Shown here piece by piece: positions 11,389 through 16,216 of a stretch of 23,392 nt of DNA (within the stretch, counting starts at the first letter, position 1; the number at the start of each line of letters is the position of its first letter). The stretch comes from a virus. Location of the stretch: positions 1 through 23,392 of IMG/VR virus record IMGVR_UViG_3300044627_003355. One strand, given 5' to 3'. The position numbers and the translations under genes are program-made. A model generated the notes under the pieces. It had not been told where the DNA came from. It was given only the letters and a program-made list of their open reading frames with translations, and ran no database searches.

Positions 11389-11898
11389 ATGAGCAATGCA
11401 AAGAAAACAGAGACAACTGAACAAACAAATTTGGCAAAGAGTACTAAAATTGTTGCTGTGTATGCAGGACGTGGTACCAATAATCAACAAGGGCATAAAA
11501 ACTTTGGGAAGAAATTCTTTAAATATGACCTTGAAGGACCGGCCTCTGATATAAAAGAATTTCTAGAACATCCATCTAATGTAGAGTATGGCGTGAAATA
11601 TAACAGAGATAACAAGCCACAGTATTGGTGCAACTGGAAAGATGCTTTTGGAACAATAGGTACTAGATACAAAGTAAACGTGTCTATATATGGGACTTAT
11701 GTATTAGACAAGGAAGAGTCCTATGATATAGAAGATACTTTGGAAGCATTAGAAAACCGTGGTCTAAGTACTGCGGCAAGAGTATATGCTGAACAAGTCC
11801 TAGGTAGTAGACTAGGATTAGGCTTGAATAAAGCAAGTGTAAGCAGACATACTGTAACAGCATCTGATGGAAGCGACGCTAGTTTAGACCAGGAATAG
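11389..11898 (+). CDS. Hypothetical early protein, 169 aa
   Basis: Starts MSNAKKTETTEQTNLAKSTK, then IVAVYAGRGTNNQQGHKNFG, a mixed alpha/beta middle (YGVKYNRDNKPQYWCNWKDA, then RYKVNVSIYGTYVLD) and a C-terminal helix (TAARVYAEQVLGSRLGLGL) with a polar tail. It forms a single-gene unit with the TACAACCC element before it and a strong terminator after it, as does 10944-11273. This arrangement suggests strong early expression. No family is recognised. Confidence 0.65.
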   Translation: MSNAKKTETTEQTNLAKSTKIVAVYAGRGTNNQQGHKNFGKKFFKYDLEGPASDIKEFLEHPSNVEYGVKYNRDNKPQYWCNWKDAFGTIGTRYKVNVSIYGTYVLDKEESYDIEDTLEALENRGLSTAARVYAEQVLGSRLGLGLNKASVSRHTVTASDGSDASLDQE

Positions 11899-12546: not shown

Positions 12547-12586
12547 TCCCAACTATCCTGAGTAGGATATAAAACTGCTCTTTATA

Positions 12587-12818
12587 TACTCTCATCCAAG
12601 CAGGAATATTATTCATAGGATGTATGATTCTGTCACCACCTATACATTGTGGGGTAACTGAATAATATTTGTTACAAGGATTGCAACCTTGTGAGAGTAC
12701 CAATAATCAGATAGAGAAGAAAGTTCTCACTCAGCAGTATAACTGACTAGTATACACTTATGTCTAGTCAACATAAGAAAAACTGAGAGGTCAGCAGGTG
12801 AAAGTCCTGCTTCTGATT
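12587..12818 (+). ncRNA. Structured RNA candidate with two domains and a pseudoknot
   Basis: Domain 1 is closed by TACTCTC (12587-12593) / GAGAGTA (12693-12699). Inside are AATATTATTCA (12605-12615) / TGAATAATATT (12659-12669) and ACAAGG/CCTTGT (12674-12692), which stacks directly on the closing helix. Domain 2 is closed by AATCAGA (12705-12711) / TCTGATT (12812-12818). Inside are GAGAA/TTCTC (12714-12728), CTCAG (12730-12734) / CTGAG (12783-12787), and AGCAGG/CCTGCT (12793-12811), which abuts the closing helix. Between the CTCAG and CTGAG strands is an H-type pseudoknot: GACTAG/CTAGTC (12745-12769) and CTTATG (12757-12762) / CATAAG (12772-12777). A short hairpin TATCCT/AGGATA lies upstream (12554-12569). 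No known RNA class was recognised. It may be a free RNA or the leader of the gene at 12846. Confidence 0.55.
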
Positions 12819-12845
12819 AAGAATTATTCACTTAAAAATATAACT

Positions 12846-13019
12846 ATGTACGAATACTGTATAAATAGTGAAATATTATTCTCTACATATGACTTAAGAA
12901 GACATATTAGAATAATGAAAGCAAGAATGAACCACCATAAAAGTATTGGTGGTAAAGTAGGTTACTTTAAAAACCAAATCAAAATTGCAGAAAAAAAACT
13001 TCTTAAGAAACTTTATTAA
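12846..13019 (+). CDS. Basic hypothetical protein, 57 aa
   Basis: ATG at 12846 gives MYEYCINSEILFSTYDLRRH, then a Lys/Arg-rich helical part (KARMNHHKSIGGKVGYFKNQ) ending in IKIAEKKLLKKLY. An in-frame GTG at 12798 would lie inside the hairpin AGCAGG/CCTGCT of the structured RNA and was rejected as start. The gene begins 27 bases after the RNA closing helix, so the RNA could control its translation. Function unknown. Confidence 0.55.
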   Translation: MYEYCINSEILFSTYDLRRHIRIMKARMNHHKSIGGKVGYFKNQIKIAEKKLLKKLY

Positions 13020-13844: not shown

Positions 13845-13928
13845 CTCTATGTCCTGAGTATGACAATAAAGTGCTCATTTTTTCAACTTAAAAATCAATT
13901 TATTATTAACTCTCAAAAACCAAAACAA

Positions 13929-16122: not shown

Positions 16123-16196
16123 GGTCCTGTAGCTCAGCTGGATAGAGCAATTGCCTTCTAAGCAATAGGTCCTTGGTTCGAATCCAAGCAGGATCA
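16123..16196 (+). tRNA. tRNA-Arg (anticodon UCU)
   Basis: A full cloverleaf can be drawn: acceptor GGTCCTG/CAGGATC (one G-U pair), D stem GCTC/GAGC, anticodon stem ATTGC/GCAAT with loop CTTCTAA (anticodon TCT at 16157-16159), five-base variable loop, and T stem CTTGG/CCAAG with loop TTCGAAT. The discriminator is A at 16196, and CCA is not encoded. It reads AGA, a codon used often in this window, so codon supply is the simplest role. It might also supply a charged tRNA for the transferase at 9374, if that enzyme uses Arg. Confidence 0.95.
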
Positions 16197-16216
16197 CTAA
16201 CTTTTAAATATATTAT

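Follow-up and report, generated by a model that had tools for sequence, protein, structure and literature searches.

What kind of RNA, if any, does the gene-free stretch around position 12,600 of the window (the whole 23,392-nt piece of viral DNA analysed here) encode, and what would a phage use it for? The earlier note had described it as one structured RNA with two domains. Our analysis resolves positions 12554-12819 into a row of three folded RNA units placed end to end, which we name E, A and B; the two domains, corresponding to A and B, were found apart from each other in related viruses, each recombining with other modules, and the reading as a single RNA was therefore abandoned. The units and the frames that follow them are:

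12554-12580, + strand: module E, a 27-nt H-type pseudoknot
12587-12699, + strand: module A (formerly domain 1), a three-way junction with an 8-bp closing helix and a junction-loop pseudoknot
12704-12819, + strand: module B (formerly domain 2), a cloverleaf-like four-way junction
12846-13019, + strand: ORF of 57 aa directly downstream, without family match, also found behind B in L073
13041-13844, + strand: gene of 267 aa belonging to no known family, used to find homologous leaders

All helices described previously can be read from the sequence once their coordinates are shifted by one or two positions; of the two closing helices given as 7 bp, that of domain 2 has this length and that of domain 1 has 8 bp. 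The stretch is non-coding and precedes a small ORF, as had been stated. The region folds more stably than its dinucleotide shuffles, with a z-score of -3.08 for 12560-12830, domain 1 by itself scoring -2.25 and domain 2 -3.29; since this is one stretch picked out of 23 kb, the score is weak evidence by itself and the comparative evidence decides, which favours domain 1 and finds the copies of domain 2 identical. Two pseudoknots with comparative support had escaped the earlier note, namely E (12554-12580) and the J1/2-L3 pairing in domain 1. The assignment to no known class is upheld by the covarying homologues of domain 1 and by an Rfam 15 scan, a check that had been proposed, in which A, B and E gave no match at gathering score and none credible at E<=5; moreover, no description of A, B or E was found in the openly accessible literature.

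The source is identified by protein relationships as a crAss-like phage: a contig of 102,735 nt (G001) has a leader identical to that of the window, and the relatives of its capsid, portal and terminase include crAss-like phages. The best match of its capsid is a Leptolyngbya phage at 28% identity, which indicates a deep environmental lineage. The capsid closest to this lineage is that of the cyanobacterial Leptolyngbya phage Lbo-JY46 (PP438436.1), a closeness that makes one ask how broad a host range crAss-like phages have. A tRNA-Arg (TCT) gene lies at window positions 16123-16197, and several relatives have tRNA genes at a similar place.

Constant frame and exchangeable insert of module A

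The 267-aa downstream gene led to 12 related viral contigs, whose leaders revealed the modularity: of domain 1, distant relatives keep only TACTCTCATCCAA(TT)GCAGG and CAAGGRTTGCAACCTTGTGAGAGTA, with the sequence between and after these elements replaced. A pattern scan of IMG/VR yielded at least some 50 further A leaders, and a covariance model gave at least 92 matches at E<1e-4 in at least 85 loci, including some 30 loci retrieved through another module only; E-values from such home-made models are rough, and all counts in this report are lower bounds. Judged from these sequence matches, module A is a widespread RNA family not previously catalogued. Its frame consists of P1, P3, the invariant UCCAA..GCAGG junction and the junction-loop pseudoknot, with the following parts in the window:

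12587-12594, + strand: 5' strand of P1, UACUCUCA; the P1 pairs covary in 88 distinct homologues
12595-12604, + strand: conserved junction J1/2, UCCAAGCAGG, in which GCA (12600-12602) pairs with UGC of L3
12605-12674, + strand: exchangeable P2 insert, 70 nt in the window
12675-12691, + strand: P3 hairpin CAAGG-AUUGCAA-CCUUG, supported by the covariance-model and MAFFT alignments
12692-12699, + strand: 3' strand of P1, UGAGAGUA, supported by covariation

In the covariance-model alignment 98.2% of the cells are paired and 9 of the 13 pairs change on both sides; the observed values were reached by 0 of 500 shuffles, and slid controls dropped to 23-47% paired. Because an alignment of this kind is fitted to the structure, the trimmed A frames were realigned by MAFFT alone, with the result of 99.0% paired cells, nine pairs with double changes, and again none of 500 shuffles at these values. 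Related sequences inflate cell counts, so independent rebuilds of P1 are given separately: the helix is extensively rebuilt in L232 (UGUUCUUG/CAAGAACA) and L050 (ACUUUUA/UAAAAGU), and that of Flavobacterium phage FpV21 has one base pair fewer, lost on both sides. The 3-bp pseudoknot between the junction GCA and the loop UGC is paired in 100% of the cells, one of its pairs occurring as CG in 30 and as UA in 3; variants are GUA/UAC in L098 and UA/UA in L235 and L116, each located in a cassette that is carried elsewhere with GCA/UGC.

Within this constant frame we counted 91 inserts of 23-153 nt, which fall into 47 clusters without detectable mutual similarity, and the same insert can precede different genes, as in L129 (267-aa gene, 35 nt) and L085 (MRNL gene, 32 nt). 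In L017 (9032-9155) a tRNA T-arm-like piece, GUGGUUCAAAUCCAC, lies inside the insert. The reading of A itself as tRNA-like, suggested by a 12-bp stacked stem and an ACCA end in the window, was discarded because P1 has 8 bp, loop lengths are variable and a T-loop consensus is absent. Between two and four copies of A are present at some loci or in some records (L050, L232, L271, L098, L116), and most of the large contigs searched hold one. A variant form, in which an extra hairpin displaces P1' and is followed by UUGGAUGAGAGUUUUU, occurs at L057 1002-1108, L076 2891-3014, L090 1190-1309, L107 1-110 and L219 5778-5890; 12 nt at the 5' end of A are complementary to UUGGAUGAGAGUUUUU, and this variant may represent a two-state switch or a terminator form.

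Cultured phages also carry the module. The covariance model located A in FpV21 (KT876726.1; 88122-88212, minus strand, 49.7 bits), placed between the next gene and a stop codon that precedes A by about 9 nt, and in FPSV-S29 (49.7 bits), whose copy a first-pass genome search had missed. The 201-nt A region of Flavobacterium psychrophilum phages is 99.5-100% identical in 18 records, and FpV4 (KT876724.1) lacks, at the FpV21 site, A and about 0.8 kb with two ORFs, so that FpV21 and FpV4 form a natural presence/absence pair. A BLAST search with a short A copy gave no match in cultured phages, where the covariance model did find FpV21; an exact pattern of 20 fixed A bases, blind to FpV21-type variants, gave none in 84,980 prokaryote genomes, and about 300 kb of Leptolyngbya phage Lbo-JY46, Cellulophaga phage phi17:2_18 and gut crAssphage cr7_1 contained no credible A.

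Three readings of the frame bear on these data. Constant ends that flank unrelated inserts, together with the FpV21-FpV4 difference of about 0.8 kb comprising two ORFs and A, would suit sites at which small inserts recombine or home at the level of DNA; nevertheless, pairs are kept via compensatory and G-U changes, a paired deletion is found in FpV21, and A keeps to one strand relative to transcription, which makes this explanation very improbable. An intrinsic terminator for the preceding gene, or part of one, is suggested by the U-run directly past P1 in FpV21 and several other copies and by the frequent location of A close behind a stop codon, but most copies go on as GAGAGUAC.. without a U-run, and a terminator would need neither the invariant junction nor the pseudoknot; we give it very little credence. 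Likewise, a conserved junction with a pseudoknot in a 5' leader could be a riboswitch in which ligand binding controls the downstream gene, a reading that appears hardly probable given that differing genes follow A (the 267-aa gene, MRNL, the 57-aa ORF, the FpV21 gene) and that no conserved expression platform is found past P1.

Modules E and B

Module E is an H-type pseudoknot with both stems covarying, and a second copy is present in the window:

12554-12557/12566-12569, + strand: stem S1 of E, UAUC/GAUA, with covariation in homologues
12560-12564/12576-12580, + strand: stem S2 of E, GAGUA/UGCUC, with covariation in homologues
13850-13876, + strand: second E copy (UGUC/GACA, GAGUA/UGCUC), just past the stop codon of the 267-aa gene, recognised from sequence and consensus

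The loops of the first copy are CU (L1) and UAAAAC (L3), and the consensus reads N4-CU-RAGYA-N-N4'-L3-URCUY. Among 20 distinct homologues covariation reaches 0.506, compared with 0.187 for shuffles, and 35 cells show double changes (0 of 500 shuffles); three of five measures exceed the shuffles, the number of pairs with any double change and the number of pair types being those that do not. The module abuts A or C, with A often following 22-29 nt downstream and C following 29 nt downstream. H-type pseudoknots in mRNA include the gene 32 leader of phages T2/T4 and the preQ1-I riboswitch, with which E shares the layout of S1, a short L1, S2 and an A-rich L3, as well as a location in phage intercistronic regions; E differs from them in that many unrelated genes or modules follow it, in its CU..AAAC core, and in having no Rfam match.

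Module B comprises these elements:

12704-12710/12813-12819, + strand: P1 of 7 bp, UAAUCAG/CUGAUUA
12714-12728 and 12793-12811, + strand: two hairpins, read from the sequence
12730-12787, + strand: arm closed by 12730-12734/12783-12787, which holds a putative pseudoknot
12745-12750/12764-12769, + strand: putative pseudoknot stem GACUAG/CUAGUC, by complementarity
12757-12762/12772-12777, + strand: putative pseudoknot stem CUUAUG/CAUAAG, by complementarity

Over 121-123 nt, B was found identical in leaders of three kinds, namely the type of the window, that of L073, in which A has another insert, and that of L003, where the flanks differ. The flanking coding DNA is 82-97% identical to that of the window in L073 and 91% in L003, and B therefore looks like a recently exchanged unit. 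As all copies are identical, covariation, which was to be sought in homologues and was found in domain 1 (9 of 13 pairs changed on both sides), can judge neither the helices nor the pseudoknot of B, supporting or refuting them. Both stem sequences of the domain-2 pseudoknot claimed earlier are indeed present; comparative support is absent and there is steric doubt, since with 6-bp stems and loops of 6, 1 and 2 nt, 2 nt must span a 6-bp stem and the two stems may exclude each other.

A covariance model of B found no diverged copy in 1.7 Mb, its weaker matches (E>=0.02) being driven by one hairpin: the terminal hairpin of B, GCAGGUGAAAGUCCUGC, is the sole part recurring in that search. A stand-alone hairpin, AGCAGGUGAAAGUCCUGC, equal to the last hairpin of B, lies past a stop codon and about 45 nt before a start codon (L009 4347-4364, L045 2638-2655, L161 773-792). 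Module B resembles a tRNA in its four-way junction, 7-bp closing stem, 5-nt variable stretch (AGGUC) and 6-bp arm with a 7-nt loop, whereas a T-loop consensus is absent and the equivalent of the anticodon loop measures 48 nt; with no call by ARAGORN or the Rfam tRNA model, the likeness was confined to topology and the tRNA reading was set aside.

Leader arrays and their possible role

Of 88 distinct copies of A, 79 lie outside ORFs, which cover 64% of random windows, and the next ORF shares the strand of A in 69 cases and is on the other in 5; this one-sided orientation speaks indirectly for transcription. In most loci with recognisable synteny A is in the early region, its map position being kept behind a divergently transcribed gene block and ahead of an HNH/ParB-like/helicase block; the regulatory leader proposed in the earlier note fits this location before early genes, by position. 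In most cases another 200-600 nt of modules separates A from the gene (median 410 nt). Along a single strand the modules keep the order H - {E|D|K|I} - A - {J|B|E} - C - M; the counts are 63:0 and 54:0 for C, taken as two halves, 47:1 for E and 9:0 for H, and the letters other than A, B, E and H denote simple patterns rather than models. Module H is the hatchet ribozyme (RF02678), which scored above the Rfam gathering threshold in 6 of 26 records (64-82 bits vs 51; 82 in L003 and 81 in both L008 and L045), all in early leaders:

L003, 1800-1937: hatchet ribozyme, Rfam
L008, 1751-1909: hatchet ribozyme, Rfam
L045, 46-208: hatchet ribozyme, Rfam
G006, 118814-118950: hatchet ribozyme, Rfam
G019, 11502-11638: hatchet ribozyme, Rfam
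G020, 89170-89333: hatchet ribozyme, Rfam

In records that also hold A, the hatchet lies 0.6-1.5 kb upstream of it on the same strand, and no hatchet was found in the window itself. Sharing leaders and strand with A, the hatchet is distinct from A, B and E, none of which matches its model. A degenerate ribozyme, which the earlier note had thought possible, would have these upstream hatchets of related arrays as neighbours.

The structure, the covariation, the family, its map position and strand, the order of the modules, their exchange and the variety of genes behind them are direct observations. In the reading that we hold with about even confidence, the stretch belongs to an array whose modules are RNA beads that fold independently, are shuffled fast and would act in cis on the early transcript. 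Such beads would set off each cistron from the leader that follows it, would place a compact fold before the start codon, and might thereby separate, process or protect early mRNAs; on account of this boundary marking and compact structure, mRNA processing and protection of the 5' ends of leaders are the most likely functions. The presence of a hatchet upstream in some arrays suggests self-cleavage as one route of leader processing. As counterpoints, the 200-600 nt of modules after A would also fit a long non-coding RNA, and the turnover of inserts would also fit a trans-acting role in an arms race. With the large phage RNAs GOLLD and ROOL, described as ornate, the array shares the character of long structured uncharacterised non-coding tracts (PMC12286853), but it differs from them in having no Rfam match and in modules that occur singly or in various combinations instead of as one long fixed RNA.

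The arms-race view can be put more sharply: the array would be an early RNA acting in trans against host defence, a function that the earlier note had also proposed, with A as a display frame and the inserts as changing effectors. The early-region position and fast turnover, the 47 unrelated insert clusters on a constant frame, and the exchange among phages that share 82-97% identity in the flanking coding DNA are what such an RNA would lead one to expect; on the other hand, the inserts are confined to leaders that run in the direction of the genes, none of the known defence-related RNAs matches, and A also stands alone just upstream of genes (L006, L007, FpV21), so we hold this reading to be rather improbable. 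Together with the riboswitch, the terminator and the DNA-level site, it ranks as less likely than both the cis role and a self-cleaving A.

The latter is the most interesting alternative to cis processing or protection. Module A, and perhaps B, could be a putative new class of small self-cleaving ribozyme, with P1, P3, the pseudoknot and a UCCAA/GG junction as core and P2 dispensable. Invariant unpaired bases at a three-way junction, the pseudoknot, one peripheral arm (P2) free to vary as in other small ribozymes, and the vicinity of Rfam-confirmed hatchets are consistent with a candidate ribozyme, and hatchet, pistol and twister-sister came from ribozyme neighbourhoods of this kind (PMC10085705). 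Conversely, no conserved cleavage dinucleotide was identified in A, no Rfam ribozyme matches it at E<=5, and among the neighbourhood-screen candidates tested in the same study none cleaved, hammerheads apart (PMC10085705); we thus consider self-cleavage doubtful, if possible. Like twister, twister-sister and pistol, A and E are compact pseudoknotted leader RNAs near other ribozymes; unlike them, A and B match no ribozyme family (Rfam, E<=5). To the broader proposal that A represents a new class of catalytic or switching RNA, in which a constant core takes a plug-in variable domain and which is shuffled among phages in strings with other ribozymes, we likewise assign only a low probability; if true, crAss-like phages would process their early mRNAs by interchangeable RNA beads.

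Whichever role applies, A provides a structured RNA family of at least some 90 members that Rfam lacks; its core is clear, its pseudoknot can be tested, and among cultured phages FpV21 carries it. The combination of frame and cassette, and the rapid exchange of ordered strings of beads, hatchet included, constitute a natural hunting ground for new ribozymes, and the leader arrays a concrete setting in which to study why phage leaders retain ribozymes.

The pattern-defined modules deserve a brief record. Module C, in at least 120 contigs, reads UAAUGYACC..hairpin with a UUCCCAAG loop..CAGUUGUA[variable]UACAACUGAGUGCAGAGGGG (for example L005 2543-2820, L008 2851-2960, L010 2704-2812). Its UAAUGC..UUCCCAAG..GCAGAG is twister-like to the eye, an identity rejected by the Rfam twister-P1 and twister-P5 models (for L198 also at E<=10), and its loop-bearing hairpin shows compensatory variation. 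Module D, ACCACAAGGUUUCAGGCAUAACC..CCUGUAAAGCAGGGGUUGACUUGUGGU, ends right before A (-51) in L045 (about 832-885), L088, L090 and L091, with a possible CAGG/CCUG pseudoknot. Module M, GUCCGUU..GGGGCUG..GAAGCC, is located after C or before A (L010 2880-2960; L055 near A), and module I, CCUCUCCGCAACUUGUACAACUAACCAAUAAUGUUGUACC, sometimes then followed by AAGCAGGUGAAAGGCCUGC, precedes the hatchet or A (L008 1711-1750; L078 and L272 just before A; L244 1479-1593).
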